Made by a program: the position numbers and the translations under genes. The notes under the pieces are model-generated. The model was not told where the DNA came from. It did no database searches and saw nothing but the letters and a program-made list of their open reading frames with translations. This document shows positions 3,657-33,440 of a stretch of DNA of 33,440 nucleotides, one piece after another. Source of the DNA: an uncultured Clostridia bacterium. Its GTDB lineage: Bacteria; Bacillota_I; Bacilli_A; RF39; UBA660. Location of the stretch: positions 1 to 33,440 of the forward strand of contig CAMOMI010000001.1 of the NCBI GenBank assembly GCA_946619755.1, written 5' to 3'. Each line of letters starts with the position of its first letter. Within the stretch, counting starts at the first letter, position 1.

Positions 3657-3657
3657 A

Positions 3658-4983: not shown

Positions 4984-5752
4984 CACTATCCCCCTCCTTA
5001 ACATCAGCTATTAAAGAAAGAGCTAATTTATTCATATTTCTTATATCACTATTATAAAACTTTGATATATGTTTATTTAATGTAAGTATTTCACCATTCA
5101 AAACATATTTATCAATATTCTTAATATAAAAGTTTTTTGATATTGTATAATCGACATTACCCTTAATCATATTTCTAATATCAAATAAACTAATATAATC
5201 TCTTCCAGTATCTCTAGAATTATTAAGTACAATCTTATAATTTGTTTTTTCCATTTCATTAAAAATACTAATTAAACTCTTCATATTTTTAATATCAACC
5301 AAATCATTTGTAATAACAAAGACACTATTATATGATGCATCAATAGCTACCAACGAAACTTCATCAAGTGAATGCATCGTATCAATTAAAATAACATCAT
5401 ACTCTCTTTTAGCAATATCAAATATTTTATCAAGATATTTACTTTCAATCTTAGATACATCCCTCGGATCCTTAGGACTAGCTAATACATCTATACCATT
5501 ATTATATTTGCATACATAATCTTTAAGTTCAATTTGCTTATTATTACTAAGTGCATCTACCAACATATAAATATCTCTCTTAACATTGACATTTAAACAA
5601 GTAGCTATTCCACCAGCAAATAAATCTAGGTCAATAATTAATACTTTCTTTTTATCTAGAAAATATAAACCGGCTAAATTAATAGTAAGTGTTGTCTTAC
5701 CAACCCCACCTTTAACTGATGAAATTGTAATAATTTTCCCTTGATTATTCAT
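4976..5752 (-). CDS. cpaE: CpaE-like ParA/MinD-family ATPase of the Tad locus
   Basis: The protein is 258 residues with the deviant Walker A motif KGGVGKTT at about residues 14-21, a Walker A-prime VLLIDLD-like segment near 38-44 and a switch segment DVILIDTMHSLDE near 120. These mark the ParA/MinD family. Its place between TadE-like and CpaF genes fits CpaE/TadZ, which positions Tad machines at the membrane or pole. It lacks the N-terminal receiver-like domain of proteobacterial CpaE, so it is the short form. A good ribosome binding site (AAAGGGT) precedes the ATG. A different MinD-type localisation role is possible but the context favours Tad. Confidence 0.85.
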   Translation of the reverse strand: MNNQGKIITISSVKGGVGKTTLTINLAGLYFLDKKKVLIIDLDLFAGGIATCLNVNVKRDIYMLVDALSNNKQIELKDYVCKYNNGIDVLASPKDPRDVSKIESKYLDKIFDIAKREYDVILIDTMHSLDEVSLVAIDASYNSVFVITNDLVDIKNMKSLISIFNEMEKTNYKIVLNNSRDTGRDYISLFDIRNMIKGNVDYTISKNFYIKNIDKYVLNGEILTLNKHISKFYNSDIRNMNKLALSLIADVKEGDSDE

Positions 5753-5766
5753 ATTAACTACCCTTT

Positions 5767-6147
5767 CTATTTTTTCTTAATAATCTTTTTTTCATCTTGA
5801 ATATATCCAACTAAATTAGATTTAGCATTAAATGCATTTATCTTTTTAATAAGTGATAACTTATTTGTTATTCTATCTTCAAGTAAAATATTAATTTCAT
5901 TATTTTCAATCAAAATCTGAATATTATCAATATCTTCTTTATTTTTAACAATTATATCATTAAGTTTTTCTTCTAAATTATTATCATCTAATTTGTCAAG
6001 TCCATAATTTATAGCTATATAATTAATATTATCTAACTCATTTTTTAGCAAAACCATATTACCAATATCATAAACTGTAAAAAGAATTAATAAAATAATT
6101 GGTAATATTAAAACAAAAGTAACTAAACTTTGACCTTTATTATTCAT
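5767..6147 (-). CDS. TadE-like pseudopilin (second copy)
   Basis: The protein is 126 residues. The N-terminus MNNKGQSLVTFVLILP followed by a membrane helix to about 29 is the TadE signature (K/R-G-Q-x-L-V-x-F, hydrophobic run). The predicted extracytoplasmic part is Asp/Asn/Glu-rich with no Cys, and the tail is basic. The conserved Glu of the TadE motif (LVEF) is Thr here (LVTF), which may matter because prepilin-type processing usually depends on that Glu. It overlaps the first TadE gene by 8 bases and has AGGAGG before its ATG. It is likely a minor pilin-like component of the Tad machine. Confidence 0.8.
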   Translation of the reverse strand: MNNKGQSLVTFVLILPIILLILFTVYDIGNMVLLKNELDNINYIAINYGLDKLDDNNLEEKLNDIIVKNKEDIDNIQILIENNEINILLEDRITNKLSLIKKINAFNAKSNLVGYIQDEKKIIKKK

Positions 6148-6472
6148 TAGGAATATACCTCCTGACAGTTATCTTATATGGATTACCAAATAATCTATTA
6201 AAGCCAGGTGTCATTAACTTAACATTTCTATTTATTGTAATTATCGTATATTTATCTTCAGTGCTAAATGTAATATCTAAATTAGAATATATTGTATTAA
6301 TATCATCAACTGTACTACCTGAAGTATATAAAGAAACAATATCAGCACTATCATTTTCAAGTGCATTCTTTTTATTAAAGATATTTCCAATATCATAGAT
6401 AGCAAACATTAGGAAAAGAAATACTGGTAATATTAATACAAACTCTACTAAAGCTTGACCACGTTTATTCAT
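6140..6472 (-). CDS. tadE: TadE-like pseudopilin (first copy)
   Basis: The protein is 110 residues and starts MNKRGQALVEFVLILPVF, a textbook TadE N-terminus with the conserved Glu, followed by a membrane helix to about residue 29 and an extracytoplasmic domain with predicted strands (TFSTEDKYTIITINRNVKL). TadE proteins are pseudopilins processed by a prepilin peptidase; no such peptidase gene is in the window. AGGAGG lies 6 bases before the ATG. This is the first gene of the Tad-like run and follows its own promoter at 6502-6510. Confidence 0.87.
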   Translation of the reverse strand: MNKRGQALVEFVLILPVFLFLMFAIYDIGNIFNKKNALENDSADIVSLYTSGSTVDDINTIYSNLDITFSTEDKYTIITINRNVKLMTPGFNRLFGNPYKITVRRYIPNE

Positions 6473-6550: not shown

Positions 6551-8836
6551 CTATTTTTTTCGTTTCGCTTTATCGTTATAATTATTCTTATTAACTTTTA
6601 CTTTATCAATATCCTCTTTTTTTAATTTATCAATATCTTTATTAGCTTTCTTTGTCTCTTCATCATCCTTATCATCTTTAAAGATTAGATAAATTAGTCC
6701 AGCAATTGCAAGTAAAATCAATATAATAACAATTACTCTCATTATTTTATTATCATCTTTAGTAGTATCATCTGGCAATACTTTATCATCACCATCATCA
6801 GGTGTTGATGGTTCAACTTCAGAACTTGGTGTATAAGTTTGTTCCTGATAACTAACAGGTTCTACAGTTGTTTCTTCTTTAGGTGCTGCCTCTCTTGTTA
6901 CTTTGACAGTATAAACTTTTTCATCGCCATTTTCAGCTGTAACGACAATTGTAATTTCATTTTCTCCTTCAACAAGCTCAGAAGGTGCTACAATTGAACT
7001 AATACTAGCAGCCGTATTTCTAACAATTGCTTCAACATCTGGTGCTGTAACATCATTTCCAACTGTAATTTCATATTCAAGCACATCATCCTGTAATTCA
7101 ATTGTTTGTCCAGCCACTGTAAGTGATGATAAACTATTATCAGTTGCTTCATTAACCGTTACATTAACCGTAGCATTAGTATCGCCTTCATAATAAACAT
7201 TTCCGTTAAAGAACTCAGCATTATCAATTTTAACAGAACTTGTACCAGCTTTTAATGCTTTAAATGTAAGTGTTAATAATGTATAATCCTGTGGTAAAAT
7301 TGTTTCATTACCTTCATCATCAATTTCTACTAAAGCAACCATTGCTTTATCTTTAAGATATATAAACTTACCTTCATAGTTATTACCTTTTGCATCTTTT
7401 ACTAATACATTAGTAAGTTCCAAAGCACTATCATCATAACTAATATTTCCAGCAAAACCACTAACCTCATTATCAGATACTGTCATCGTATAATCGATGG
7501 TAAACTCATCACCACTAGATATCTCTTCACTATTTAAATCAAGTCTTGTATCTAATGCTACTTCTTCCTTCGTAATATTAGTATCATTACCAGCTAACAT
7601 TTGATCCAAATAAATAACATCAAGTGTTCCAACGTTATCATCTTTATCAAAATCAGATGTTTCTTTAATAGCCTCTTCTTTACCTATAGCTTGATCTATC
7701 AACGCTAACACATCATCTTCATTAACTTGATTATCCTTATTAACATCACCAACAATTGATGCACTATAAGTAATTGTTAATTCTTCATCAGTTAAGGTAA
7801 TCTTTGTACTATTATCAATACTAAATCCAGCTAAATATTCTTGTAAATCAACTTCTTCAGTATATCCAGCTAATATATCCTCATTTTCACTATTGCTAAG
7901 AACCATACTGATATTTTCTGATTCACCTACCATATCACTAACGATATTATATAAATCAGCTATTGTCATATCATCACTTAAGAAGACATTAATCGTACCA
8001 TTCTTTTCCGTACCTTCAAATTGATATTTATCACTAAGTGATACGTTACTAGCGCTTTCATTTAACTTATTGGTATTCATTTCATATGTACCATACATAA
8101 TCTTATATTCTTTTGAATAATCGATAACTTCACCATTTTTAGTAATTTCAAAAGTAACTGGGATTGTATATTCACCATATAAATGTCCTGATAAATCTAT
8201 TTCACTAGTAAAGAAATAATCAAATATTTCATCAGTTGTATACTCAGTTTCATCAAAAACGAAAGTATCGCTAGGGCTTAATCCTCCAGGGGTCATTAAT
8301 CCTATTACACTAATTTTTTCATTACTAGCATCAATTTCATAAATACCTTCTTCATTTTGACCAATTTCTTGATCCTCAGCATCTAACAAATGAAACATCA
8401 TGCCTTCTGTTGCACTAAATTCTTGCTCCATTTGTTTACTACCTAAATCTTCTTCAGTTGTCTTATCAAATAATGAAACAACAACATTCCAAGTGCCATC
8501 ATAAAAGTTGCCAAATAGCAGTTGAGAATCAACTTCATAACCAGTATCGGCAAGTAAATCACTTCCAACTACATCATAAGTAGCAGTATTTTCATCGCTA
8601 CTCTCATCTAAGTAAGTATACTTTTCACTTACTGTAATTGTTACTTCATCAGTTGCTTCTAGCTCAGATAAATAATTAATTAAAATATTTTGATTTTCTT
8701 CATTAAACTGAATATCGAAATTGTCTTCACCCTCATAAGCAAAAACAGTTGATAAACCAGTCAAATTACTAAAAAACATTCCTAAAACTAGAAAAATCTT
8801 GGTAAAGTAACTAAGTTTTTTTCCTATTTTTTTCAT
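6551..8836 (-). CDS. Membrane-anchored surface protein with dockerin-like, cohesin-like and cadherin-like modules
   Basis: The protein is 761 residues. A signal peptide (about 1-33, ending at VFAYE) leads into a 330-residue Asp/Glu-rich part I cannot name. A dockerin-like pair follows at about 363-414: GDVNKDNQVNEDD and DFDKDDNVGTLD are Ca-binding loops of the EF-hand type. A cohesin-like domain follows at about 424-562 (DxxLDLNSEEISSGDEF, GFAGNISYDDSALEL, LLTLTFKAL). A cadherin-like beta-sandwich is at about 567-648 (SLSSLTVAG...VYTVKVTRE). A Pro/Thr/Asp linker, a membrane helix at about 697-718 and a highly charged Lys-rich cytoplasmic tail complete it. It has its own promoter and a terminator. 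It may bind other surface or cellulosome-like proteins; no enzyme domain is seen. Confidence 0.85.
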   Translation of the reverse strand: MKKIGKKLSYFTKIFLVLGMFFSNLTGLSTVFAYEGEDNFDIQFNEENQNILINYLSELEATDEVTITVSEKYTYLDESSDENTATYDVVGSDLLADTGYEVDSQLLFGNFYDGTWNVVVSLFDKTTEEDLGSKQMEQEFSATEGMMFHLLDAEDQEIGQNEEGIYEIDASNEKISVIGLMTPGGLSPSDTFVFDETEYTTDEIFDYFFTSEIDLSGHLYGEYTIPVTFEITKNGEVIDYSKEYKIMYGTYEMNTNKLNESASNVSLSDKYQFEGTEKNGTINVFLSDDMTIADLYNIVSDMVGESENISMVLSNSENEDILAGYTEEVDLQEYLAGFSIDNSTKITLTDEELTITYSASIVGDVNKDNQVNEDDVLALIDQAIGKEEAIKETSDFDKDDNVGTLDVIYLDQMLAGNDTNITKEEVALDTRLDLNSEEISSGDEFTIDYTMTVSDNEVSGFAGNISYDDSALELTNVLVKDAKGNNYEGKFIYLKDKAMVALVEIDDEGNETILPQDYTLLTLTFKALKAGTSSVKIDNAEFFNGNVYYEGDTNATVNVTVNEATDNSLSSLTVAGQTIELQDDVLEYEITVGNDVTAPDVEAIVRNTAASISSIVAPSELVEGENEITIVVTAENGDEKVYTVKVTREAAPKEETTVEPVSYQEQTYTPSSEVEPSTPDDGDDKVLPDDTTKDDNKIMRVIVIILILLAIAGLIYLIFKDDKDDEETKKANKDIDKLKKEDIDKVKVNKNNYNDKAKRKK

Positions 8837-17401: not shown

Positions 17402-18079
17402 TTACATTTCATTATTATCCTTAAAACTATAATAACTATTATAGCCAATAATAACATGATCTATTAAATTAATTCCATGTATTAAACCAATCTCTTTAAG
17501 ATTCATTGTTGTAATCTTATCTTCTTTACTTGGACTAGCATCCCCAGAAGGATGATTATGAACACAGATAAAACTTGTTGCAGATAATAAATATGCTTCC
17601 TTAAATATCTCTCTCGGATGAATATTTGAAAAATTAATTGTCCCAATGAATAAGCATTTTTTGTCAATATAATTATTTTTTGTATCCAAATATACAACAT
17701 AAAAATACTCTTGCTTCTTATCCCTTAAAAGCATATTAAAGTATCTATATACAGCCATTGGAGTATTTAATTTAATCTTATCTATTGATTTAGTCATATA
17801 CACTCTTTTTCCAAGTTCTAAAGCCGCTTTTAACTCAATAGCTTTTACTTTCCCAATACCATCTATCTTCATAAGTGAAGATATTCCAATATCCTTAAGT
17901 TTTTCAACATCACCAAGTACTGATAACAATGATAAAGCAACTTCTTTAACATTATATTTTTTGCTTCCAGTTTTTAAAATAATTGCAATTAATTCCTCAT
18001 TAGATAAATATTCACTTCCATAATTATATAACCTTTCTCTTGGTTTATCACTATCAGATATATTCTTAAACTTATTCAT
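17402..18079 (-). CDS. radC: RadC family JAB-domain protein
   Basis: The protein is 225 residues, normal for RadC. An N-terminal helix-hairpin-helix part (about 1-90; SLMKIDGIGKVKAIELKAALELG) precedes the JAB/MPN domain with the metal motif HNHPSGD...PSKED at about 172-185 and the ending HVIIG. RadC was once linked to DNA repair; the biochemical role is still unclear, and a metal-dependent peptidase fold is what the sequence supports. The start is unusual: the good AGGAGG is 19 bases before the ATG and is nearer to another ATG that opens a two-codon frame (ATG GAC TAA). Confidence 0.93.
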   Translation of the reverse strand: MNKFKNISDSDKPRERLYNYGSEYLSNEELIAIILKTGSKKYNVKEVALSLLSVLGDVEKLKDIGISSLMKIDGIGKVKAIELKAALELGKRVYMTKSIDKIKLNTPMAVYRYFNMLLRDKKQEYFYVVYLDTKNNYIDKKCLFIGTINFSNIHPREIFKEAYLLSATSFICVHNHPSGDASPSKEDKITTMNLKEIGLIHGINLIDHVIIGYNSYYSFKDNNEM

Positions 18080-18153
18080 ATTATATTAGTCCATTATTCC
18101 TCCTCATTAATATCATTCCTAAAAAGAGTTATCATTTTCTTTTTTTGACTAAA

Positions 18154-18184
18154 ATAATACCAATTTCTCTTATATTTTCTTCAA
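18154..18184 (-). promoter_or_regulatory. Possible promoter of radC
   Basis: TTGAAG (18184-18179) and the extended -10 TGGTATTAT (hexamer 18159-18154) are 19 bases apart, which is long. The site lies between the upstream terminator and radC, where a promoter is needed. Confidence 0.4.
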
Positions 18185-18209
18185 TAATTATCACCGAGTT
18201 AAAATACAT

Positions 18210-18239
18210 AAAAAAAACAAGATAGAAACACTATCTTGT
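18210..18239 (-). terminator. Intrinsic terminator after the 218-aa exported protein
   Basis: ACAAGATAG and CTATCTTGT form a perfect 9-bp stem across TGTTT, followed by eight T on the minus strand. Confidence 0.92.
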
Positions 18240-18265
18240 AATTTATAAATTAACCATCTACTAGA

Positions 18266-18922
18266 CTAACTAGCAATTACACCGGTAACGTGACTAGATC
18301 CACTATCGGTAGTTGCTTCAACAGTACCAACATAATTTTTACCAGAGTCAAGTGCAGTTTGGTCACCATTAGTTTCATTTACATACAATACAACTGTATA
18401 TGATTCAGAAGAACCAGCACCAATATTAACTGTAGTTATAGCTTCAGAACCAGTAGGTACAGCCTTACAATCTACAACAGGTGTTGTTGTTCCAGCAGAA
18501 CCATAAACACAATAATAAAGGTTGGCAAAGTTATTACTAACAGTCTTTAAAGAGATATTAACTGTTTGAGCAATATTTGCACTATTTGATATTGTAAAAT
18601 CATATGTATTACACAAATCAAAAGTTTGTGTTGCATCGGCTTGGCTAACACCTTTACATTTAGCCTTATTACCAGAACCAGATTGACCATATGAAGTTAA
18701 CATATTAGCTTTAGTTACAGGAATCATATTAGTTGCAGTTCCAAGTGTATCAGTAATTGTAAGAGTACCAGCAACATTTGCTGATTGTGCAGTTACTCCA
18801 TTTTGAGTAGCTCCATTTGCTGTTACACTAAAGTATGCGAATGTAGCACCTATAATAGCAACTACAAGTGTTGCAACACCTATTACCCCATAAAATATTC
18901 CTTGACCATTTCTGTTTTCCAT
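18266..18922 (-). CDS. Exported protein with SipW-type signal peptide (TasA/camelysin-like class)
   Basis: The protein is 218 residues. Residues 9-32 are a hydrophobic signal that ends GATFAYFSVTAN, the pattern of signal peptides cleaved by the SipW-type peptidase in TasA and camelysin proteins. The mature part is rich in Thr, Ser, Asn, Gly and Val and contains two spaced Cys pairs (CKGVSQADATQTFDLC and CVYGSAGTTTPVVDC), probably disulfides. Its composition and codon use are less AT-driven than the neighbours, as in abundant proteins. It has a strong ribosome binding site (AAGGAGG), a strong promoter and a strong terminator. It may form a surface fibre. No SipW gene is in the window, and no type IV pilin or Flp motif is present. 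Confidence 0.7.
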   Translation of the reverse strand: MENRNGQGIFYGVIGVATLVVAIIGATFAYFSVTANGATQNGVTAQSANVAGTLTITDTLGTATNMIPVTKANMLTSYGQSGSGNKAKCKGVSQADATQTFDLCNTYDFTISNSANIAQTVNISLKTVSNNFANLYYCVYGSAGTTTPVVDCKAVPTGSEAITTVNIGAGSSESYTVVLYVNETNGDQTALDSGKNYVGTVEATTDSGSSHVTGVIAS

Positions 18923-18946
18923 TATCTTATCCTCCTTACTATCTAA

Positions 18947-18975
18947 ATAATATCATTTTTTTTTACAAAAAGCAA
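18947..18975 (-). promoter_or_regulatory. Strong promoter of the 218-aa exported protein
   Basis: TTGCTT (18975-18970) and TATTAT (18952-18947) are 17 bases apart, with TGA making the -10 extended. No terminator was seen between the coiled-coil gene (stop at 18988) and this promoter, so some read-through from the ATPase-like operon is possible. Confidence 0.75.
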
Positions 18976-18987
18976 TATATTTTGTTA

Positions 18988-20835
18988 TTATTTAATATAA
19001 TTTTCTGATACAATAGGCACATCCACTCTATCATTATGGGCAAGTCCCATAGTAGGTAAAATTATATCCTTATTTTCTTCAGCTGTTGCTTCAACTTTAG
19101 CAAGCATATTATTTGGTTTAACTGTTCCTATACCACTAATAGTAGGCATATCACTAACTATTCCTTCTTGTTTTTCCTTGTCATTTATTTCAAACTGATT
19201 ATCATCTAAGAATGGATCTGTTTCATTAAATAAATTATTTTCTTCTTTCTTAGGTTCTTCAATAAATATTTCTGTTGGAATAGATACATTATCACTTGGA
19301 ACATTTATTTTAATCGCATTATCTACTGTCTTTCCAGTTGAATCATTTGTATCCAAATTAATACTTATATCTCCTTGATTAGATGTTGTAATAAATACAT
19401 CATCTGCTTCAGAAGCAGTCTCATTATTTGAATCAAAAGTAACAAAAATATCATCTTGTTTTTCTAAATCTTTTTGTTTATTTAATTCTAACTCTCTTTT
19501 TTTTCTTTCCTCTAGTTCCTTTTCTGCTTCTTTTATTTTATCTCTTTTACCATTAAACTTTTTAGGTTCTAAGACAATTACTACTTTTTTCATAACTAAT
19601 TTAGCCGTATCAACAGCATTTCTAACATTAATCTTTACCGGTTCACTTATCTTAACAACCATATTACTAGGTTTAATTAATCTTTCATCATTATTTTTCT
19701 TTATTACTTCATTATGAACTATTTCTTCTTTAGGAAGTTCTATTTTTTCAATTTTTCTTTTATCAACAGAAAATTCATCCAATAAAGCAACTATCTCTTC
19801 TCTATTATTTGCCTTATCCAATTCTTCTAATCTTGTCTCAGCATCTGATATTTCTAATATTAATCTATCAATATTCTCAATATTATACTTCTGTGATTTA
19901 ATAATACTAAATTGCTCGTTACATAATTTAGCAAAATATTCAAGTTCATCCCTACTAGTTATTTCAAGCTCATTCCTCTTTGCTAATCTCTCCTTTAATA
20001 AATTAGCAATTTTATCTCTCTTTTGATATAAAGCATCATAATCATTTTCTTTATCTAATACTAATTTATATATATTTAACATATACATTTTTTCAAGTTC
20101 TACATAATAATCTTTTTTAGCATCACTTACATATGACAAATATTCTTCACGTTCAGCGCCACTTATACCAGCATTTTTAAGTGCGTCATAAGAAGATATA
20201 AATGTATTCATAACTTCTAATTTATCATTTAAACTAACACTTACTTTAACAAGTTCAGCATCAATATCCATATAGTTTAAACTAGCATAATAATCATCTC
20301 TTGAAATTATTTTATTATATTCATCGATAAGTTCATCTTCTAATTTTTGATTAATTATTTCATTGTTAGCTTTATTTTCATATTTTTCTTGAAGAGTATC
20401 TCTTAATTCTTTTAATCTACCATTAAGTACTTCAATTTCTTTAGAATTATTCAAATATTCTAAAATATTATCTAATCTTAATCTATAATCATCAAGTTCA
20501 TCTTCCATTGATATTTTAGGTAAATCATCTAAAAAGTTTGATGTAATTTTAATATAATCATCTTGGAATTCATTTCTCTCAGTAATTCTATTTTCAATAA
20601 ATGATGTTAAATCCTTAAGCCTATCAGCTTCTTCTTCTAATGTCGTCGTTGTATACATTTTACTTGCAAGTAATTCTTCATACACGCCATGTCTTAACTT
20701 ATCAACCTCTTTAGCTGTCTCCTCATAATTACTAAGCATCTCTTCTCTGTTGCGAATATTACCAAGCATTATGCTTGTTCTAAGTATCTTATATTTTTTT
20801 TCTAATATGCTGTCATTTATTCCTTGTTTTATCAT
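18988..20835 (-). CDS. Large coiled-coil protein of the F1-like ATPase locus (615 aa)
   Basis: I do not recognise a family. Residues 1-360 are almost wholly helical and charged with heptad-like spacing, suggesting long coiled coils. Residues about 375-450 are basic (KKVVIVLEPKKFNGKRDK, then an EKELEERKKRELELNKQ helix). Residues about 455-615 are acidic and look disordered, with repeated DDxF/DPFLDD-type pieces. There is no signal peptide, membrane helix or Cys, so it should lie in the cytosol. GGAGG precedes the ATG by 6 bases and the gene starts 15 bases after the gamma-like gene, ending the operon. A cytosolic scaffold or stator bound to the F1-like head is a reasonable guess. Confidence 0.8.
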   Translation of the reverse strand: MIKQGINDSILEKKYKILRTSIMLGNIRNREEMLSNYEETAKEVDKLRHGVYEELLASKMYTTTTLEEEADRLKDLTSFIENRITERNEFQDDYIKITSNFLDDLPKISMEDELDDYRLRLDNILEYLNNSKEIEVLNGRLKELRDTLQEKYENKANNEIINQKLEDELIDEYNKIISRDDYYASLNYMDIDAELVKVSVSLNDKLEVMNTFISSYDALKNAGISGAEREEYLSYVSDAKKDYYVELEKMYMLNIYKLVLDKENDYDALYQKRDKIANLLKERLAKRNELEITSRDELEYFAKLCNEQFSIIKSQKYNIENIDRLILEISDAETRLEELDKANNREEIVALLDEFSVDKRKIEKIELPKEEIVHNEVIKKNNDERLIKPSNMVVKISEPVKINVRNAVDTAKLVMKKVVIVLEPKKFNGKRDKIKEAEKELEERKKRELELNKQKDLEKQDDIFVTFDSNNETASEADDVFITTSNQGDISINLDTNDSTGKTVDNAIKINVPSDNVSIPTEIFIEEPKKEENNLFNETDPFLDDNQFEINDKEKQEGIVSDMPTISGIGTVKPNNMLAKVEATAEENKDIILPTMGLAHNDRVDVPIVSENYIK

Positions 20836-20850
20836 AAAAGCACCTCCAAA

Positions 20851-21615
20851 TTACATCACTTTCTTATAATTTTCTACACTCTTAAGAATACTCTTTTGCT
20901 TTCTCATCTTAGCCTCTTCATGCTTAAGTTCTTCTTCTCTCTCTTTAATCTTATCTAAAGCTGACGAAGTTATCTGACTTCTAAGTACGTTTTCAGCAGC
21001 AAATGAAATACTTTCACACATTCTAAGCTGATAACAAATATAAAAAGTCATTAAACTACTTAAAAAGTCATTAATATTGGTTTCAATTACAAAGTCTTCT
21101 CCTTCATAATATTCACCTTTAAATTCAATTGGAAATAATCTGATTTTCACAAATTCAAATGATGTAAGTGAATGATAATGATTATAGAATACATTTACTT
21201 CACTATAATTCATACTACGTATTGCCTCATCAATGCATCTTTCTATTTCCATAAATCTTTGTTCAAATTGTTCTTTTTCAATTTTAAGTAATACTTTATC
21301 ATCAGTATAAATAATTTTCTTACCAATAATTATTTTATATTCATTAATATCTTTTTTTATCTGTCTACTAACTTCCGAATTAAAATTACCACAAAATCCA
21401 TAATCGTTAGCAATATATATATTTAATTTAGGCTTATTACTATCAGGAGCAAGAATCATTTTATCCAAAATTAAATTTTTGTTATACATTATTCTACTTA
21501 ATATTTCAGTTATTTCCTTACCCACATCACGATACTTATCAGCCTCTTTTAAAGCTTTATCCATTCTAAGAAGCGATTGAAAATTCATAACTTTAACAAC
21601 ATTTTTAATTTTCAT
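20851..21615 (-). CDS. atpG: F-type ATPase gamma-subunit-like protein
   Basis: Gamma is the central rotor shaft of F1. The protein is 254 residues, somewhat shorter than the usual 285. The family marks are there: a long N-terminal helix (KNVVKVMNFQSLLRMDKAL), the DYGFCGNFN motif at about 69-75 (usual form DRGLCGxFN) and a C-terminal helix with SFAAENVLRSQITSSALDKIKE at about 201-222 (usual form SExxxRMxAMxxATxNA). The tail after this is extended and basic (KHEEAKMRKQKSILKSVENYKKVM). AAGGAGG precedes the ATG; a second ATG five bases upstream opens only a four-codon frame. It is divergent, as expected for an F1-like rather than a housekeeping enzyme. Confidence 0.85.
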   Translation of the reverse strand: MKIKNVVKVMNFQSLLRMDKALKEADKYRDVGKEITEILSRIMYNKNLILDKMILAPDSNKPKLNIYIANDYGFCGNFNSEVSRQIKKDINEYKIIIGKKIIYTDDKVLLKIEKEQFEQRFMEIERCIDEAIRSMNYSEVNVFYNHYHSLTSFEFVKIRLFPIEFKGEYYEGEDFVIETNINDFLSSLMTFYICYQLRMCESISFAAENVLRSQITSSALDKIKEREEELKHEEAKMRKQKSILKSVENYKKVM

Positions 21616-21627
21616 GCATCTTCCTCC

Positions 21628-22167
21628 TTATATCTTTTTGTAGTCACGCTTCTTCAAATTATCCTCTTTTAAAACAATATTATTAAGTAATTTAAATGTC
21701 ATATATGTAAAATATAAAAATACAAATATTGTCACAAGTCCCAATACTATTAGTAAAAACACTGACGTATAAGTCGTAGTCAAATAATCATATAACATAC
21801 TTGTAACAAAGATACAAAGTATATTAATCATTGAAAATACTAAATCGACAAATATACGATTATAATCTTTTATTATAATATCACTAGATATCATAAAGAA
21901 TACCGTAATAAAAATATAATAGATATTAAGGCCACTAAAAGTAGCTACACACCATATCAAAAAGATATAGTTAAGTGTAATCATACTAAAAGCTAGAATA
22001 CTACGATTATCCATTCCTAAAAACAAGCCATAAAACTTTATTTTACTTGTTTTAACATTATATTTTTTTAATGTAATCTTAAACGTAATAGCTAGTACTA
22101 TTAGAAATATAATAGCCACTACCAAAAAATTGACAATATTTCCAAGTATTGGAAGACTTTTATCCAT
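21628..22167 (-). CDS. Five-helix membrane protein of the F1-like ATPase locus
   Basis: The protein is 179 residues with about five membrane helices (roughly 9-30, 56-77, 79-101, 106-127 and 133-158) and a Lys-rich cytoplasmic end. I do not recognise it. It is not subunit a: the length is short and no helix carries the essential Arg in the LxxRLxxN setting. Charged residues in or near helices are few (N-R-S at the start of helix 2, KDYNRIFVD at the helix 3-4 turn). It sits between the epsilon-like and gamma-like genes, one base after the epsilon stop. It could be part of a replacement membrane sector. Confidence 0.8.
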   Translation of the reverse strand: MDKSLPILGNIVNFLVVAIIFLIVLAITFKITLKKYNVKTSKIKFYGLFLGMDNRSILAFSMITLNYIFLIWCVATFSGLNIYYIFITVFFMISSDIIIKDYNRIFVDLVFSMINILCIFVTSMLYDYLTTTYTSVFLLIVLGLVTIFVFLYFTYMTFKLLNNIVLKEDNLKKRDYKKI

Positions 22168-22168
22168 A

Positions 22169-25111
<2,943 letters not shown>

Positions 25112-25112
25112 A

Positions 25113-25880
25113 CTATACATTCCTTTCACTTAAACTAAAATCATATACCTTATTTCTATATACAATTTTAATTCCCCTGTATATCTTATCATTAAATACT
25201 GTTTCAATATTTTCATTTAGATGATCATAATTTTCACTCTTATTACCAACCAATATTTTTATTTTAGGATTATTTAAATCAACAAGTTGATCCAAATAAT
25301 CAATAAAATTATCTACATTATTTTCACTTGTTACAAGTTTAAAAGCTTCATACACTTTATATTCTTTTTTATCTAGCATTTCCTTAAGTTTTGCTTCATA
25401 ATCATCTTTAAGCATACTCTTAAGTTCATAAACTACATCACTATCAAATTTACCCCTTAATTGTTTACAAAAATCAAAATCATTTTTCTCATCACACAAA
25501 GTAAGAAAATCTCTAATTAATTCTTCATAATTAACAACAAAATTTTCATCAATCTTTCTATTTAATTCAAATATATTTTGATTTTGATATCTTGTTTCAT
25601 TAAATAAATCAATTACATTATTATCAAACGCATATTCTTGATTACTACCTTTTAATGTTTCCTCTTCTTTTATTCCCTTTTCTCTATCCTTAATTAAATT
25701 ATCAATCTCAAGTAATTTATTTTCTTTATCTTGTATTAAATCATCATAACCTTGCAATTTATTTACAAAATAAGACTTTGTTTGATCATTGACAATTCCA
25801 ACTGTTTTTTTAAGGATTAAGAACATTATTGAAACAAGAAAAGCAATAACCAAGCAAACAACAATAAATACAATAAGCAT
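25113..25880 (-). CDS. Peripheral-stalk protein, b/delta-like fusion
   Basis: The protein is 255 residues. It begins with one membrane helix (about 3-25) with no signal cleavage, then a charged helical region (about 30-75), as in subunit b. The C-terminal third resembles subunit delta: a helical part (YELKSMLKDDYEAKLKEMLDK, EAFKLVTSENNVDNF) and an end KIYRGIKIVYRNKVYDFSL, matching the delta ending I-G-G-x-x-I-x-x-x-D-x-V-x-D-x-S. One chain would thus tie membrane to the top of the head. Fused b-delta chains are known in some bacteria. The ATG lies one base after the c-like stop and lacks a clear Shine-Dalgarno, so translation is probably coupled. Confidence 0.7.
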   Translation of the reverse strand: MLIVFIVVCLVIAFLVSIMFLILKKTVGIVNDQTKSYFVNKLQGYDDLIQDKENKLLEIDNLIKDREKGIKEEETLKGSNQEYAFDNNVIDLFNETRYQNQNIFELNRKIDENFVVNYEELIRDFLTLCDEKNDFDFCKQLRGKFDSDVVYELKSMLKDDYEAKLKEMLDKKEYKVYEAFKLVTSENNVDNFIDYLDQLVDLNNPKIKILVGNKSENYDHLNENIETVFNDKIYRGIKIVYRNKVYDFSLSERNV

Positions 25881-25881
25881 C

Positions 25882-26154
<273 letters not shown>

Positions 26155-26168
26155 CTATTCTAAAATTT

Positions 26169-26198
26169 ATTATATCATCGTTTTCTTTTATTTGTCAA
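26169..26198 (-). promoter_or_regulatory. Near-perfect promoter of the F1-like ATPase operon
   Basis: TTGACA (26198-26193) and TATAAT (26174-26169) are both exact consensus on the minus strand, 18 bases apart, and TGA before the -10 makes it extended. It begins at the stop codon of the 239-residue gene and starts RNA about 32 bases before the c-like gene. Confidence 0.88.
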
Positions 26199-26918
26199 TT
26201 ATTTAAATAGGCTATTCAAATTATATGGTTTAGTTAATAAAATTCTTTCCCCAAATAACATAAAATAGTGTTCATTTAAACATAAATCTAATTTATCAGA
26301 AGTAGCTGTTATCTTTTTTCCTTCAATTTCTAATAATTCAGATTTATCATTTTCTTTATCATAATATACAAGAGTATAATCATCGACGTCAACATAAGAA
26401 TTAGCACTAAGTTTAACATATTCTTTACCATCTATCTTAAGACTAACCTCATCAGAAAAGAAATATAATCCTTCACCATCATATAAGAAGAAATTATTAT
26501 ATTTTCCTTCCTCAATTCCATTAGAGAGTTTACCCAAATCAAGAGTATCATCATACAATGAATATTTATATACTCTATATTGTTTTCCATCCTCAAGTGG
26601 AAAGACAGCATTCATTTCCTTAGGAAATATCATTTTTTCATCATTTTTATAATATATCGGTGTAGCATCATATAATATTTTTTCATCTTTTGGAGTAACA
26701 TCAACAATTGTCTTTTTTAAATTATAAGTAACAATCGCCGTATATTCTGTTTTAACACCTCCAAAATACTGAAATACTGAAATTTCTTCTTTATTTCTAT
26801 AATTATCATATTTATATTCGCGATACAAGAAATAAACTGTTATAAGCAAAACAAATACCACCATTACAGGAATCAAAATTTTGTATTTTTGTTTACAAAA
26901 ATCAATAATTCTTTTCAT
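26199..26918 (-). CDS. Membrane-anchored extracytoplasmic protein (239 aa)
   Basis: The protein is 239 residues: a short basic cytoplasmic start, one membrane helix at about 14-33 and a beta-rich external domain. I do not recognise a family. A stretch near the C-terminus (KITATSDKLDLCLNEHYFML) resembles one in the first domain of the 484-residue protein encoded just upstream (ITVNSDSDLKVRWNGNYYLV), suggesting a shared domain. GGGAGGTAA, which includes the upstream gene's stop codon, precedes the ATG. The ATPase operon promoter begins at its stop codon. Confidence 0.72.
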   Translation of the reverse strand: MKRIIDFCKQKYKILIPVMVVFVLLITVYFLYREYKYDNYRNKEEISVFQYFGGVKTEYTAIVTYNLKKTIVDVTPKDEKILYDATPIYYKNDEKMIFPKEMNAVFPLEDGKQYRVYKYSLYDDTLDLGKLSNGIEEGKYNNFFLYDGEGLYFFSDEVSLKIDGKEYVKLSANSYVDVDDYTLVYYDKENDKSELLEIEGKKITATSDKLDLCLNEHYFMLFGERILLTKPYNLNSLFK

Positions 26919-26923
26919 ATTTA

Positions 26924-28378
26924 TTACCTCCCATATTTAAATGGTGAACTGCTGTTTATAACAAGTGTACCATTTTCATTACTTACACTATCAATATTTA
27001 AATCAATGACTGACCCACTAACAATATCATATTCAGATACATCAAAGGTTCCTATCAAAACAGATGAATTATTATCAACAGAAAGCGTATCAACAACAGT
27101 CTCACTGACAATTGAAGTTGTATCATCACTAAGCTTTTTTCTATAATCAAATGTCATTGATACTTTCACAGAATCTATTTTATAGCTAGTATCTAAATAT
27201 ACTTTATATTTAACCTCTATTTTATCAACACTATTTATTTTATATACAGCAATACTATAGTTAGGCATCTTAGTTTTCAATGTTAAATCATCAAACTTAT
27301 GAAGTATAACTTCACCAGTATCATCATCAACTGTTGTATATATAAACTTAATATTATATTCCTTATTTGGAATTAATCCTTCAAAAACAACATGTGTATC
27401 AGTCTTTGACAAATAAACTGTTTCAACTTTATTATTTTTTGTAATTTCAGCATAAACTGACTTATATTCATTATATGGATCATATATTACATAATCGATA
27501 TCTATTGAACTAATTCCTGTCTGTGGTCTAATTACTGAAGTCATCTTTGTTTTATCTTTAATTTCTTCGATTGAAGACACATCACCATCATTATTATTAG
27601 TAACCAACGTACTACCATTTCCACTGCCATTACTAACAACTTGCGTAGATGATGTACTCATCTGACTACCATCATTATTACCATCATTTTGCTTTTCATC
27701 ATCATCTTCTTTTTTATCTTCTTTATATTGATTAGTTGTTCCAATAACCTTCTTTAAGTCAATTTCCAAATCGCTATATTTAAGTATTTCATTAGCTATA
27801 TCAAAAGTATAATCAGATGTCCTTAATACCGTTGGATTAATTGTTTTTAAATTAAGTTTATTATTAGATAACTTAGCATTTCCCATTTTATCCAGTTCAA
27901 CTAATAAATAACTACTTGCATCAATGCTATTATCATCGCTTATTATTTTTCTATCAACAAGCAAGTATTCTCTATCAGCCAATTTATAAAATTTATTATC
28001 AGTCGTTGCTAATTCTGTTTCTCCATCCGTTGCATTAATTTTTCCAGAGGCATCAATTTCATACATTTTTCCATATAATTTTATTTTACCAGTAACCATG
28101 TTATACGCAATTACTTTCTTACCTAAATTAACCTTACTATCTTGATAAACTAAATAATAATTACCATTCCATCTTACTTTAAGGTCACTATCACTATTAA
28201 CTGTAATAAAGTTTTTATTTTCATCTTGCAAAATACTATCACTACTAATAGTATATACTATTTTAGCAGCATGACGATATTTATAAATGAATAAGGAGAA
28301 AATAACGACAATAAGTATCATCAAAATCATAATTATCATAAAATTTCTCTTATTCCTTAAATCATATTTTCTCCTCAT
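26924..28378 (-). CDS. Membrane-anchored protein with fibronectin-III-like C-terminus (484 aa)
   Basis: The protein is 484 residues. A strongly basic N-terminus and a membrane helix at about 12-33 give an outward-facing protein without cleavage. A beta-rich domain (about 35-215) is followed by a low-complexity linker (about 218-268) of Asp, Asn, Gly, Ser and Thr. The rest holds at least one fibronectin-III-like module with the usual VVFEGLIPNKEYNIKF pattern. There is no Cys and no LPxTG motif. GGAGG precedes the ATG by 10 bases. It lies 18 bases after the giant gene and 5 before the 239-residue gene, so the three form one unit. Confidence 0.78.
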   Translation of the reverse strand: MRRKYDLRNKRNFMIIMILMILIVVIFSLFIYKYRHAAKIVYTISSDSILQDENKNFITVNSDSDLKVRWNGNYYLVYQDSKVNLGKKVIAYNMVTGKIKLYGKMYEIDASGKINATDGETELATTDNKFYKLADREYLLVDRKIISDDNSIDASSYLLVELDKMGNAKLSNNKLNLKTINPTVLRTSDYTFDIANEILKYSDLEIDLKKVIGTTNQYKEDKKEDDDEKQNDGNNDGSQMSTSSTQVVSNGSGNGSTLVTNNNDGDVSSIEEIKDKTKMTSVIRPQTGISSIDIDYVIYDPYNEYKSVYAEITKNNKVETVYLSKTDTHVVFEGLIPNKEYNIKFIYTTVDDDTGEVILHKFDDLTLKTKMPNYSIAVYKINSVDKIEVKYKVYLDTSYKIDSVKVSMTFDYRKKLSDDTTSIVSETVVDTLSVDNNSSVLIGTFDVSEYDIVSGSVIDLNIDSVSNENGTLVINSSSPFKYGR

Positions 28379-28396
28379 ATATTCTTTACCTCCAAA

Positions 28397-31300
28397 TTAG
28401 TTTTTCTTTTTAATATATACTACTGGTCTACTAAATGAATCATTATCGTTAAAATCAAACCATCTAGCATTACCTGTTTCTTTATCATTTACATAATATC
28501 TTGTTGTAATTAGATACGTATGATTTAAAATATTATTCATATCTACCGGATCAATAATAAATCTCCATTCATCGGCTTCCGTATCGATATCAAAGTATTT
28601 ATCATCACCAATAATATACTGTCCATCATGTCTATCAGTTCCATTAAGATCTTCAATTAAATATTCAACAATTTCAATATTGTCAAAATTTGAACCACTA
28701 GGGAATGATAATACAACACTATTTTCAGTAATACCATAACCAACGGTTTGTCCAAAGGCAACACCAAATGAGTTAGTAGTATACATCGAATATTCCTTAA
28801 CAATATGTTTAGTAATTTGAGAATCGCCTTCGTTTTTTAAGTCAGCATCTCCAAAAATATATACTGTATATTTTGTGCTTTCCGTAAGTCCACTTATGCG
28901 AACTGAGCTTCCTTTTACTGTTGCATCTAAATCATAGCTATCATAATCACTATTCGTACTAACAGTCGTATAAGTTTCATCTGCATTCATTATCTGCAAA
29001 TTACCAACTATATTACCATTACTATCAACAACTTTAACATGATATTTTCCATCGTTTAAAGTTCTATAAGTATTATCAATGACTTCAATATTTAAATCAA
29101 TCCCATACTTTCCATCAACATAAACAGCTTTTCTTTTTCTAACAACAAATTCAGGTGGAAGAAGCTCATTTAAATGAACCGTAGCAGTTACTTTATTAGA
29201 ATAAAATGGAACCGTATTTTTAATTACTGAATTTTTATCTTTATCATAATAATCATAAGTAACATATATATACATATAATAATCTTTATTATATGTTAAA
29301 TCATAACTACTTATATCGACTTGATCTGTAATTGTTGCTTTAACATTATCGGCAGTTATTACCTTTTTAAATATATTAGTATTATCTTCCCCAACGCCAC
29401 AATTTTCATCATCATATTGACAGAAAGCATAACTAACATCAAAATTAAATGGTACTGAATTATCATATGCAGTTAAATTAATAGTCGTATCCAATAATTT
29501 ATCATTATATCCACCAGTTAAACTTGGCTTATAATTTGAAGTATAACTACTGAATACTTCACTAAGCAATTTACTCTTAAATTCGTATGTTTTTGTTTCC
29601 CAGCCATTACCTTTATCGGCTGAAGCATTATCAAATAATTGTGTATATTCTTTTCGATTATTTTTATTTAAATAAGCATAAACATTATAATAATAATCCT
29701 TACCATTATATAAATTAATAATATCAGCAACTAATTCTTCACCAGTATTTGAATTATTAATCTTTACTTTTAAAGTTGGCCTAATTGTCTGTGACAAATC
29801 ACCAACCAAAGCAGAGTCGTTCCAAGTTTCAATGTAAATATATTTATCACCATTACTTGTATTAACACAATTATCACCAGTGTTTTCTTCACAAAATTCA
29901 TCTATATCTGCACCTGTTAATTGAAGTTTTACCTTAGCACCATTAATTAAACGAGTCGTTTGATTAATAGCTACCGTTGGTGTAACACTACTAAATGAGA
30001 AAGTATTCTCATTACTTGTCATTTTAGAAACAGACATCATTTTTGGATTTAATGTACCCAAAGAAGCTGATTTATATCCTTCACTTACTAACTTGTAGTT
30101 TATTGAACCAACATGTGAAGTATTATATTCACTATAATAACCAAATGCATCTGTCATTTTTGAATATGTATAGTATCCTTTAGCCAACTCTAAACTTTCT
30201 GTTAAATTAATTGGTGTTCCACTCGTTGTATAAATGATATAATAGCCATATTTAGATTTTGTACTATCATTTTGCATTATCATATAAGGATAATCCTTGC
30301 CTTCACCAACAGTATAACTATATCCCATAAGTCCATTATCATATACTGCACTAACAGATACTGTAATCAAATTTTCTTGATTATCTGATTTCATTCCATT
30401 GTTTTTTAATTTAATATAATCAACAGAAAGACATCTATAACTACCATCATCCTGACATTTTTTTAGTTGCCATTCTTCTGGAGCATCATATACATTTCCC
30501 TTTGAATCCTTAAAATTCATTCTATAACTAACAATTCGATCAAGTAATTCTTGCTTAGCTAACATTTTAATAACAACCTTATTATCAGATAAAGAATTAT
30601 TAATTACCTTATATTTAAAATTATACTTTTCTTCAGTTACATCATAATATCCTTCAAACAGCCTATTAGTAAGACCTATCGTTTTATTTTTGATATCATC
30701 ACTAGGATTACCAGTCTTGTTAATATTTACCTTATAAAATAATGTATACCCTAATTTATCCTCATCATTTTTATCTAAATTACCAACAGTGAAATCGCCT
30801 GTAAATGTAAGTGGATTTTCCTCTTTTATGTCATCAGTAATATCTATTTCATATTCTCCATCATCATTAACACTATAATATAAATTATAATTTGTTGTAC
30901 TATAAATAGCTCTATCTGGATCAATTATTTCATATTTGTAAATAACGCTATTATATGTTGATTTATCAACATATAAATAATTAATTTTTGGACTATCTTT
31001 ATCAGTTTTAACTAATTCATAATATCCATAACTTACTGGAAGTTCTTCAATAACATTAGAAGGATATAATCCTTTAATGTTATCTTCACCTTGAGTAACT
31101 ACCTCATACCCAATATAGTAACTATTTCCTCTACTCATTATAGTATCTTTTGTACCATAATCTGTACCATATCCCATATAAATATAATCAGTATATGATC
31201 CTACATCATTAATATCTGCTGTTATTTTTTCAGTTAAAGTAAGATTGCCAGCCTGATCCATTTGATAAAACTGTACTTTTTCCTTAGTAACAGCATCATA

Positions 31301-33440
31301 TACATACATATTTATACCAACTGGATTCATATCGTTACTAATTAATCCATTTTTATCAAAACTAGCTGTCACCTTATAACCAACTGTTGTCTCAACTGTC
31401 AAATTAGGAAAAGCATCATTTTCTTCCTTTTTAATTGGTACAAGTGTAATAGTTGGATCCTTAATTTCATCAGCCAACAACTCTTTATTAATACGATAAT
31501 CTTTAATATTTTTATCAATCAATATTGAGTATTGTTCATTAATGTCATAATAAGCATATATTGCTAACGTATAATAAGGACTTAACTTACCATTTTCATT
31601 TTTAGTTAATTGTTTTAATGTATCAATATCTAATTCAAACGTTTCATCAGTTGTAATTTTATAAGGATTATCATAAAACATCTCTTTCAAAGTAGTATCT
31701 TCAGTATTTTCAAATGGTTTTGAAACAAGCAATCTTTGACTAGCCAAATTACCTTCATATTGCCCATTATAAAGTCTAATAACTACTCTATTAATAATAC
31801 TAGCTGTTTCACTTGAACTAATTGCATTATCATTTTCTCTACCCTTTAATTGAGTATCCATATTTATAATATGTGTCGTTGTACTATCTCCAGCTTTCCA
31901 TTCTGCTTCAAAAGTAGCTAAAAACTTTGTCATAATATAGTTTTCAGATTCGGCAGAGTTACTAATTTGTGCTAACCCAGCACTTAATAAATCATTACGA
32001 ACAGCTGAAACATAAATAACATATGTTGTTCCATGATCTAGATTATCAACAATAATATCTTTTTTAATTATATTACCATCAACATCAAAAGCAATGCTTC
32101 TAGGATAACCAGCGATTGATTCTTCGCGTCCTGTATATGGATCCCTCTTTTTAACATCTAATACCGTTGTATTATCACCATCGCATTTTTCTCTATCAGG
32201 CATTGAAATTGAACAACTATTATCTGTAAGATAAATCGTTGCAGCAATTTGATTGTAACTTATTTTTTCTTTATCTGGAACAACAGTAACAAACGGATCA
32301 CTACCCATAGAAAATACAATACTATCGCTTGTTATATATTCAATATACTTCTCATTATCATAGTACTCAATAACAACTCTATAAAAATAATTTGTATCAT
32401 TTTTAAGTTCATTTTCACCATTACCAATTTTTACTTGAATTGGTGAAGCATTAGTTTTAGTTATTGGTTCAATTGCGGTATCTTTTTGATTACTATTCTC
32501 ATATATACGATAAGTATATCCAACAATTGCATTATCAGGATCACTTATATTTTCAAGTGCTAATTTAAATATTCCATTGCCACTATCTTTATTAATTGTC
32601 ATCTCACTAAATGTTGGCAGTTTCTTAAGGGTCATAGAAGTTAATGTTATATTATATAAATCTTTAAAGTTAGTTGACATAACTGAAAACTCATCCAAAA
32701 CAGCTGTATAGATTGTATCACTATCTAACCCCGTAAATGAAACATTACTATATTCCCCATTTGCCGAAGTAGTTAAATCAGATAATTTATAACTTGCAAC
32801 TGGTTCTTCAGAATTCTTATTACTTTCTTCGTCAAACTTATACAATGATACTTTAGCATCCCTTATATCACTATCTTTATCAACTGTTATTTTATATCCA
32901 AGTTCACTATCAGTAGCATATACCTTTTCCAATTTAATTCCAAAATCGCTTGTTTCAAATACTTTTTGAAAATATTTACTTTCATCTCTTTCATTAACAA
33001 CTGTAAATAAATATTTAGAATTAGGTGATAAGAAATTAACTCTTATTTCTTCATCTGCTTGAATATCACCATATTTATTTATTGTCCTACCAGTTTCCAA
33101 ATTAGTAACACTAAGTGTCAAAGAATCATCTTCTCTAGCATTTTCTAAATCAAAAGACACACTCACACTAGTACTACCAATTCTAGCATCTTTTAATGTT
33201 ACTTGTAGTTCATTACGTTTAACAATTTCGGCATTGTCATTATTAGCAGTTTGATTCCCATCAGTATTTCCATCATTGCCATCTTGATTATTAGAATTAT
33301 CATCTATCTGATTATTACCATCATTACCATTACCAGTATTTTCATCTTCCTTTTCTTCTGCTTTAGGAATAATTTCAATATTCTCATCGCCATTAATAGT
33401 AATAGCTGTAATAGACATTACATCACTATCACCTTTAGTG
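28397..33440 (-). CDS. Giant extracytoplasmic protein with fibronectin-III-like repeats, 5' end cut
   Basis: The reading frame is open to the right window edge: seven codons (TKGDSDV) precede the first in-window Met at 33418, so the true start is probably outside. From that Met 1673 residues remain. A Gly/Asn/Asp-rich spacer (about 20-64) is followed by many beta-rich modules with fibronectin-III-like ends, such as VSFTGLDSDTIYTAVL, IVDNLDHGTTYVIYVSA and ISGLTESTKYTVYIF. Four close Cys pairs (near 401/411, 986/994, 1175/1183 and 1332/1339) are the only Cys seen and would suit disulfides outside the cell. No C-terminal membrane helix or LPxTG exists; an anchor is likely in the missing N-terminus, as in the next gene. 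Confidence 0.82.
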   Translation of the reverse strand, partial: TKGDSDVMSITAITINGDENIEIIPKAEEKEDENTGNGNDGNNQIDDNSNNQDGNDGNTDGNQTANNDNAEIVKRNELQVTLKDARIGSTSVSVSFDLENAREDDSLTLSVTNLETGRTINKYGDIQADEEIRVNFLSPNSKYLFTVVNERDESKYFQKVFETSDFGIKLEKVYATDSELGYKITVDKDSDIRDAKVSLYKFDEESNKNSEEPVASYKLSDLTTSANGEYSNVSFTGLDSDTIYTAVLDEFSVMSTNFKDLYNITLTSMTLKKLPTFSEMTINKDSGNGIFKLALENISDPDNAIVGYTYRIYENSNQKDTAIEPITKTNASPIQVKIGNGENELKNDTNYFYRVVIEYYDNEKYIEYITSDSIVFSMGSDPFVTVVPDKEKISYNQIAATIYLTDNSCSISMPDREKCDGDNTTVLDVKKRDPYTGREESIAGYPRSIAFDVDGNIIKKDIIVDNLDHGTTYVIYVSAVRNDLLSAGLAQISNSAESENYIMTKFLATFEAEWKAGDSTTTHIINMDTQLKGRENDNAISSSETASIINRVVIRLYNGQYEGNLASQRLLVSKPFENTEDTTLKEMFYDNPYKITTDETFELDIDTLKQLTKNENGKLSPYYTLAIYAYYDINEQYSILIDKNIKDYRINKELLADEIKDPTITLVPIKKEENDAFPNLTVETTVGYKVTASFDKNGLISNDMNPVGINMYVYDAVTKEKVQFYQMDQAGNLTLTEKITADINDVGSYTDYIYMGYGTDYGTKDTIMSRGNSYYIGYEVVTQGEDNIKGLYPSNVIEELPVSYGYYELVKTDKDSPKINYLYVDKSTYNSVIYKYEIIDPDRAIYSTTNYNLYYSVNDDGEYEIDITDDIKEENPLTFTGDFTVGNLDKNDEDKLGYTLFYKVNINKTGNPSDDIKNKTIGLTNRLFEGYYDVTEEKYNFKYKVINNSLSDNKVVIKMLAKQELLDRIVSYRMNFKDSKGNVYDAPEEWQLKKCQDDGSYRCLSVDYIKLKNNGMKSDNQENLITVSVSAVYDNGLMGYSYTVGEGKDYPYMIMQNDSTKSKYGYYIIYTTSGTPINLTESLELAKGYYTYSKMTDAFGYYSEYNTSHVGSINYKLVSEGYKSASLGTLNPKMMSVSKMTSNENTFSFSSVTPTVAINQTTRLINGAKVKLQLTGADIDEFCEENTGDNCVNTSNGDKYIYIETWNDSALVGDLSQTIRPTLKVKINNSNTGEELVADIINLYNGKDYYYNVYAYLNKNNRKEYTQLFDNASADKGNGWETKTYEFKSKLLSEVFSSYTSNYKPSLTGGYNDKLLDTTINLTAYDNSVPFNFDVSYAFCQYDDENCGVGEDNTNIFKKVITADNVKATITDQVDISSYDLTYNKDYYMYIYVTYDYYDKDKNSVIKNTVPFYSNKVTATVHLNELLPPEFVVRKRKAVYVDGKYGIDLNIEVIDNTYRTLNDGKYHVKVVDSNGNIVGNLQIMNADETYTTVSTNSDYDSYDLDATVKGSSVRISGLTESTKYTVYIFGDADLKNEGDSQITKHIVKEYSMYTTNSFGVAFGQTVGYGITENSVVLSFPSGSNFDNIEIVEYLIEDLNGTDRHDGQYIIGDDKYFDIDTEADEWRFIIDPVDMNNILNHTYLITTRYYVNDKETGNARWFDFNDNDSFSRPVVYIKKKN

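Follow-up and report, generated by a model that had tools for sequence, protein, structure and literature searches.

A candidate ion-uncoupled F1-like ATPase family linked to surface-protein genes in Bacillota and Actinomycetota

The F1-like ATPases of mycoplasmas are the described enzymes that most resemble, in plan, the system reported here. The type 2 G1-ATPase is the gliding enzyme of Mycoplasma mobile, with an N-terminal extension of beta and dimeric chains (PMC8406192, PMC11864180). The type 3 F1-like X0 ATPase is the partner of the MIB-MIP system; it has a 12-transmembrane (TM) protein and another of 2 TM, while b, delta and the remaining Fo subunits have no homologue in it (PMC12994834, PMC3369863). 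PMC12994834 describes type 3 as mycoplasma-specific and reports the complete set of its seven proteins in 126/126 strains that have homologues of MIB and MIP; both type 3 ATPase mutants could not escape immune-serum agglutination. The N-ATPase is a second F-type operon, horizontally spread, that stands beside the canonical one and has Na+-binding c residues and atpR and no delta (PMC4154653). Here we describe an F1-like ATPase operon adjoining surface-protein genes in a 33,440-nucleotide stretch (the window) from an uncultured Clostridia bacterium (GCA_946619755.1, contig CAMOMI010000001.1). A sequence-only reading of the window had likened the operon to types 2 and 3 with the two numbers exchanged; the published numbering assigns gliding to type 2 and MIB-MIP to type 3. 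Comparative analysis indicates a real F1-like ATPase family that spans two phyla and is undescribed as far as these searches go: among the papers listed from one open literature collection, none described such an enzyme outside Mollicutes in its title or abstract start. We think it fairly likely, from gene content and sequence comparison, that an F1Fo enzyme has here become an ATP-driven machine that is uncoupled from ions and acts on surface proteins.

The operon lies on the minus strand, and its order from the 5′ end is large surface protein, S484, S239, promoter, c, b-delta, alpha, beta, epsilon, 5-TM protein, gamma and CC615 (Table 1). All the genes named in the sequence-only reading are open frames at the positions it assigned to them on that strand, and alpha, beta, gamma and c were confirmed by Pfam and NCBIfam, with PF00006 matching alpha (E 4.1e-71) and beta (E 1.9e-66) and PF00137 matching c (E 1.7e-8). 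The near-perfect promoter proposed before c was likewise borne out. It matches TTGACA-18-TATAAT with TG at 12/12 bases and is the sole 12/12 site in 17900-33440, where sites with at least nine matches numbered 114, against 121.6 in shuffles. The same 12/12 score was obtained at 7/7 loci checked in the genus, the window's included; the best score at the distant loci L073, L074, L112, L119, L148 and L149 was at most 9 of 12. Among the loci read, strong matches to CC615 were restricted to the window's genus and one further genome (G024).

The catalytic sites of F1 are intact across the family. The P-loop Lys and Thr, catalytic Glu, Arg and Walker B Asp of beta were kept in 67/67 rows, and the Arg finger of alpha was Arg in 68/70 rows, the two exceptions both stemming from a single split gene, represented by two copies of 307-residue fragments. 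Alpha and beta thus carry the active-site residues of canonical F1Fo, and what had been read of these motifs in the window extends to its relatives. Alpha is shortened at the C-terminus relative to the canonical chain. Some carriers have a C-terminal extension of alpha, as in L085 4888-9138 (G013), where the whole frame is 1416 amino acids (aa), and in G264, G272 and L137 (loci L074, L078 and L137), where alpha is about 830-890 aa. Apparently split genes were seen in two carriers, for beta in G024 (L065) and for alpha in G005 (L063).

Alpha and beta trees had been proposed in the sequence-only reading as a check on the origin of these chains, and in them neither chain grouped with the housekeeping enzymes or with types 2 or 3. 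In the alpha tree (65 rows, including 30/70 of the new family) and the beta tree (64 rows, including 28/67), which took in 8/14 type 3 rows, the new family formed one group with a support of 100 in the Shimodaira-Hasegawa-like approximate likelihood ratio test (SH-aLRT), separate also from housekeeping enzymes, some of which came from the same genomes. A joint alpha-beta tree with bootstraps, which took in nine alpha and eight beta rows of the new family, supported the alpha group at 100/100 and the beta group at 98/80. For the beta tree there was a warning that long branches meet, and the new clade may lie nearer to types 2 and 3 or nearer to housekeeping enzymes. Bifidobacterium and Coriobacteriales rows fell among Bacillota rows, which points to movement of the cluster by horizontal transfer. 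As a candidate mobile-element gene, alpha had no match of at least 60% identity among plasmid or phage records.

Model scores agree with this placement. The window chains stayed below the cut-offs for type 3 (NF045934 beta, 404.2 versus 570; NF045936 alpha, 313.7 versus 520) and type 2 (NF045858 beta, 365.3 versus 850; NF045863 alpha, 386.8 versus 600) and far below those for N-ATPase (TIGR03305 beta, 419.7 versus 752; TIGR03324 alpha, 353.7 versus 750.5). The atpD cut-off was passed narrowly by beta (465.7 versus 462.85). Like type 3, the new family has an F1-like alpha, beta, gamma and epsilon operon beside surface proteins, has no canonical Fo and moves between lineages; unlike type 3, it has c, b-delta and a 5-TM protein, its surface proteins are others, and its clade is separate. 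With type 2 it shares an F1-like enzyme proposed to transmit force to surface proteins, but its beta (449 aa in the window) belongs to a separate clade. Like the N-ATPase, it can stand as a second F-type operon in genomes with a canonical one and seems to have spread horizontally. Alpha, beta, gamma, the beta domain of epsilon, c and b-delta recall canonical F1Fo, from which the family differs in having no c carboxylate, no PF00119 protein, a short alpha C-terminus, linked surface genes and its own clade. In plan, the family resembles the mycoplasma surface-linked ATPases; by these score and tree tests, it belongs to neither type 2 nor type 3.

The c subunit was said to have no acidic residue in the membrane, and this held beyond the window. 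The helix 2 acid was absent in 57/58 distinct c proteins of the new family, whereas housekeeping c frames, recovered from 21/22 housekeeping loci, kept Glu in 21/21. The window c has Ala at the position of Glu in two housekeeping c proteins. The R-N-P-E loop and an outer N-P were invariant in the 58 c proteins.

The stalk and membrane parts were compared with housekeeping subunits by hhalign. The C-terminal end of the 255-aa protein matched delta (probability [P] 77.5, E 1.9e-5, 30 columns) and its N-terminus matched b (P 50.4), which makes a b-delta fusion the best reading of this protein. For the epsilon-like protein, the match was limited to the N-terminal beta domain of epsilon (P 65.4, columns 4-82 of 145); the helical part that is missing inhibits hydrolysis in other enzymes. 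The 5-TM profile had no sequence relation to subunit a (P 1.4). As a route to identifying the 5-TM protein as subunit a by sequence, this profile was rejected: its only hits among solved chains were two at chance level, and both of these look like designed proteins. The predicted structure (predicted local distance difference test score, 83.0; predicted template modelling score, 0.77) gave weak Foldseek matches (best E 0.32), and 11 of the 50 best rows among 62 matches were ATP synthase Fo chains read as subunit a. In a second structural comparison, 8/50 rows were such chains, with Z 7.5-8.7 and 146-156 of 179 residues aligned; the other 42 rows align at most 126 residues. Subunit a is named as such in entries 6n2d, 9jc2, 9ito and 6vof, the other entries being assigned by chain letter and title. 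Since such Z scores are common for helical bundles and the top rows were unrelated bundles (Z up to 10.2), we put the chance that the predicted fold is that of a far-diverged a-like subunit only somewhat above even. An alignment of 60 rows had no conserved Arg column in mid-helix, the highest Lys/Arg share being 0.78 at position 159, near the C-terminal end; in housekeeping subunit a proteins the Arg was found in 16/16.

These data bear on whether ions might still be pumped via an unusual path, through another residue or a lipid- or water-borne route, with the surface genes as passengers. Such an enzyme could account for the almost complete F1Fo part list and for a 5-TM fold that may be a-like, and the L137 c protein, the only one of the 58 with a helix 2 acid, carries an Asp shifted by one residue, just ahead of the usual position. 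A PF00119 search of the L137 genome (G834) found no subunit a. With an acid lacking in all other c proteins, no conserved membrane Arg in the 5-TM rows and a surface-gene linkage that spans two phyla, we regard continued ion pumping as very improbable.

The spread of the family was assessed by scanning a genome collection with the c alignment. At least 80 loci were kept, of which 34 (L154, L155 and L158-L189) were left out of the counts, L154 and L155 being annotated and ordinary in appearance. By gene content, at least 46 of the at least 80 loci belong to the new family, with c identities of 54-95%. Scattered among gut bacteria, the carriers at the loci listed are uncultured Bacilli, Lachnospiraceae (including Kineothrix alysoides), Oscillospiraceae, Peptococcaceae, Family XIII and other Clostridia and, in Actinomycetota, Bifidobacterium colobi and Coriobacteriales. 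When genomes of the window's family were added and duplicates removed, at least 63 non-redundant loci were available, 49 of them with at least 4 kb upstream of c and 51 with at least 6.5 kb downstream. Both S484 and the large protein lay upstream of c in 43/49, so the adjacency of surface genes and operon noticed in the window persists in relatives from two phyla. Epsilon was present in 51/51 loci, b-delta, gamma and the 5-TM protein each in 50/51, and S239, on either side, in 40/51. Outside the window's genus and its close kin, the usual order is large protein, S484, c, b-delta, alpha, gamma, beta, epsilon, 5-TM and S239, often closed by a second large surface protein; in the genus, the order is alpha, beta, epsilon, 5-TM, gamma and CC615. 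A distant query found no second large protein in seven genomes of the window's genus.

The three outward-facing proteins reported before c are indeed three anchored surface proteins, but the large one is cut by the window edge, and its full frame on the contig is 1904 aa with an N-terminal anchor. From their anchors, the surface proteins would lie N-in, C-out. S239, S484 and the large protein share related N-terminal regions (hhalign P 83.9, 94.2 and 98.8, the first including the anchor helix), and the outer beta domain of S239 is related to juxtamembrane parts of the other two. The second large protein is linked to this group via the first (P 89.8), with P 61.0 to S484 and P 7.0 to S239. A relative of it, with a 3046-aa frame, was seen in G246 (C1 688389-692231, L227), away from the 20-kb ATPase cluster stretch. 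In two Lachnospiraceae loci (L116 and L151), 5-TM-like helices (E 0.006-0.008) and S239 (E <1e-23) are in a single chain. An hhalign P of 98.4 between S239 and the 5-TM protein was discarded as homology because the L151 fusion sits in both alignments. Structural lists for S484 were dominated by fn3 matches to residues ~275-484, not to the beta domain (40-207), and the Kineothrix large protein has collagen-like and Ig-like stretches. A search with S484 in 392 genomes of the phylum matched seven, strongly in two (its own and G168); the other five scored ~19-64 bits, the best being G593 (E 9.9e-18). In its family, the B. colobi S484 matched the source genome plus 4/151 genomes at E >1e-4.

The genomic context of the enzyme differs among carriers. 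In the window's genome (826,659 bases, 75.78% complete) there are one alpha and one beta, a third PF00006 match falling below the cut-off; a second canonical operon was sought there, and no second alpha/beta pair was found. Subunit a (PF00119) was found in 0/37 genomes of the family, the same incomplete genome included, and in 21/60 genomes searched, all 21 in other families, as well as 9/14 controls. The claim that subunit a is absent therefore stands for PF00119, though a far-diverged a-like subunit may be present in the form of the 5-TM protein. Alpha was present in 25/291 family genomes, with none at E 0.001 in 266/291; 23 of the 25, the window's own included, have the F1-like kind, and G095 and G251 have an ordinary-looking operon in which c keeps Glu. 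Most sampled family genomes are thus without an F-type alpha and a minority have the F1-like one; much of the family appears to live without an F-type ATP synthase. Elsewhere, canonical subunit a was found in 16/29 carrier genomes (G808-G822, all 15, and G827), so that the F1-like enzyme is a second enzyme in those carriers. The canonical operon was retrieved for nine carriers. The 13 carriers in which no canonical subunit a was found are seven Clostridia metagenome-assembled genomes of 1.3-1.7 Mb and six from Bacilli or similar of 1.2-1.4 Mb.

The many alpha-less genomes of the family, together with the split beta of G024 and alpha of G005, might suggest a decaying ATP synthase remnant in a reduced genome. 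A remnant would hardly be expected to keep its catalytic residues, to have the same gene set in Bacillota and Actinomycetota, or to coexist with canonical subunit a in more than half of the carriers searched. Nor does its occurrence fit, which is sporadic: 3/200 genomes in the Kineothrix family, where the Kineothrix alpha was searched only at E up to 1e-100, and 1/151 in the B. colobi family. We give this explanation almost no weight.

The ion-uncoupled, surface-directed machine that we favor would work as follows. F1 (alpha3 beta3 gamma epsilon) would hydrolyze ATP and rotate gamma-epsilon with the c ring, the b-delta chain would keep F1 stationary, and the 5-TM (a-like) protein would sit beside the ring. 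S239, S484, the 1904-aa protein and, in other lineages, the second large protein would receive the energy, in the form of torque or of a conformational cycle. The energy would not be stored as an ion gradient because the c ion carrier is gone and the 5-TM protein has no conserved membrane arginine; ATP is probably spent on working surface proteins and not on making or using a gradient. Assembly, rotation, direction of work, mechanical output and the task at the surface are what we infer, torque through the c ring being the boldest form and a conformational cycle the cautious one. The full rotary motor, in which F1 spins an ion-blind c ring as a membrane axle against a b-delta and a-like stator and so drives long surface proteins, turning something outside the cell, is put forward tentatively, as an idea with less than an even chance. 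What supports a surface-directed machine is gene content, catalytic residues, the lost carboxylate, linkage, a separate clade and coexistence with a canonical enzyme. The analogous ATP-driven surface machine suggested by the sequence-only reading is in this respect well supported by comparison, but it is not of a mycoplasma type, and subunit a may survive in altered form.

Several observations weigh against an ion-uncoupled, surface-directed machine. S484 and the large protein are not beside c in 6/49 loci, and 11/51 are without S239. For an a-like fold of the 5-TM protein, the structural matches are weak and the sequence comparisons gave no relation, and one c protein (L137) has its displaced Asp. 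The scan that yielded c proteins used conserved c motifs, and acid-keeping relatives differing there would not be detectable by it; these motifs exclude the carboxylate position, and 24 c proteins of the window's family were reached through alpha, not c.

The membrane parts could instead be static. If the c ring and membrane sector were an anchor, F1 might assemble, export or reset the surface proteins without membrane rotation, by analogy with other ATP-driven export or remodelling enzymes. Anchoring F1 requires no ion step, and the surface proteins are large and linked. However, gamma, epsilon, the c loop and the b-delta stator are all kept, which exceeds the needs of an anchor, and we consider a static anchor unlikely, although less so than ion pumping.

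Table 1. Features of the ATPase operon and the adjoining surface-protein genes in the window
Feature	Position	Strand	Description
Large surface protein, C-terminal part	28397..33440	-	N-terminal anchor outside the window, many beta modules, fn3-like near end
S484	26924..28378	-	anchor helix, beta domain 40-207, disordered linker, two fn3-like domains
S239	26199..26918	-	single anchor helix and outer beta domain
Promoter TTGACA-18-TATAAT for c and genes after	26169..26198	-	12/12, TG before -10
c subunit	25882..26130	-	two helices, RNPE loop kept, helix 2 without acid
b-delta fusion (best reading)	25113..25880	-	one N-terminal helix (b-like), delta-like C-terminal end
Alpha subunit	23786..25129	-	P-loop and Arg finger kept; profile match stops at 435-436 of 503 positions
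Beta subunit	22422..23771	-	catalytic residues kept
Epsilon-like, beta domain only	22169..22429	-	hhalign to housekeeping epsilon columns 4-82 of 145
5-TM protein, possibly diverged subunit a	21628..22167	-	weak predicted-fold likeness; sequence comparison against
Gamma subunit	20851..21615	-	PF00231, E 3.8e-26
CC615, coiled-coil-like, predicted cytoplasmic	18988..20835	-	strong matches among the loci read in the window's genus and G024

Other genes in the window were noted in passing. After the operon, 18266-18922 encodes a 218-aa secreted protein, TasA/camelysin-like by eye, and one to four copies of relatives lie beside the cluster in several family genomes (L067, L069, L072, L117, L124 and L132). 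Frames in 1799-6472, named by eye from translations, resemble a compact Tad/Flp pilus locus, with a P-loop secretion ATPase (3658-5004), a MinD/TadZ-like frame (4976-5752), two membrane proteins and two short TadE-like frames. Adjoining it, 6551-8836 encodes a surface protein of 761 aa that has a C-terminal anchor and matches the Cadherin-like domain PF12733 (E 8.4e-07).

Since the window beta passes the atpD cut-off, automatic annotation may give such genes the name ATP synthase, so that they go unnoticed. Two of the carriers that have canonical subunit a as well, Kineothrix alysoides and Bifidobacterium colobi, are isolate records, which makes the proposed ion-uncoupling and surface-coupling of a rotary ATPase directly testable. 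PMC8406192 imagines an intermediate in which an F1Fo associated with a surface receptor becomes a motor; the new family, with a near-full F1Fo part list and the ion step removed, would be an intermediate of that kind. Surface-serving F1-like ATPases, described as mycoplasma-specific, would have a separate lineage in Bacillota and Actinomycetota. If the proposed function is correct, this lineage would add one more F1-type mechanical machine, distinct from types 2 and 3, that has been exchanged between the two phyla.

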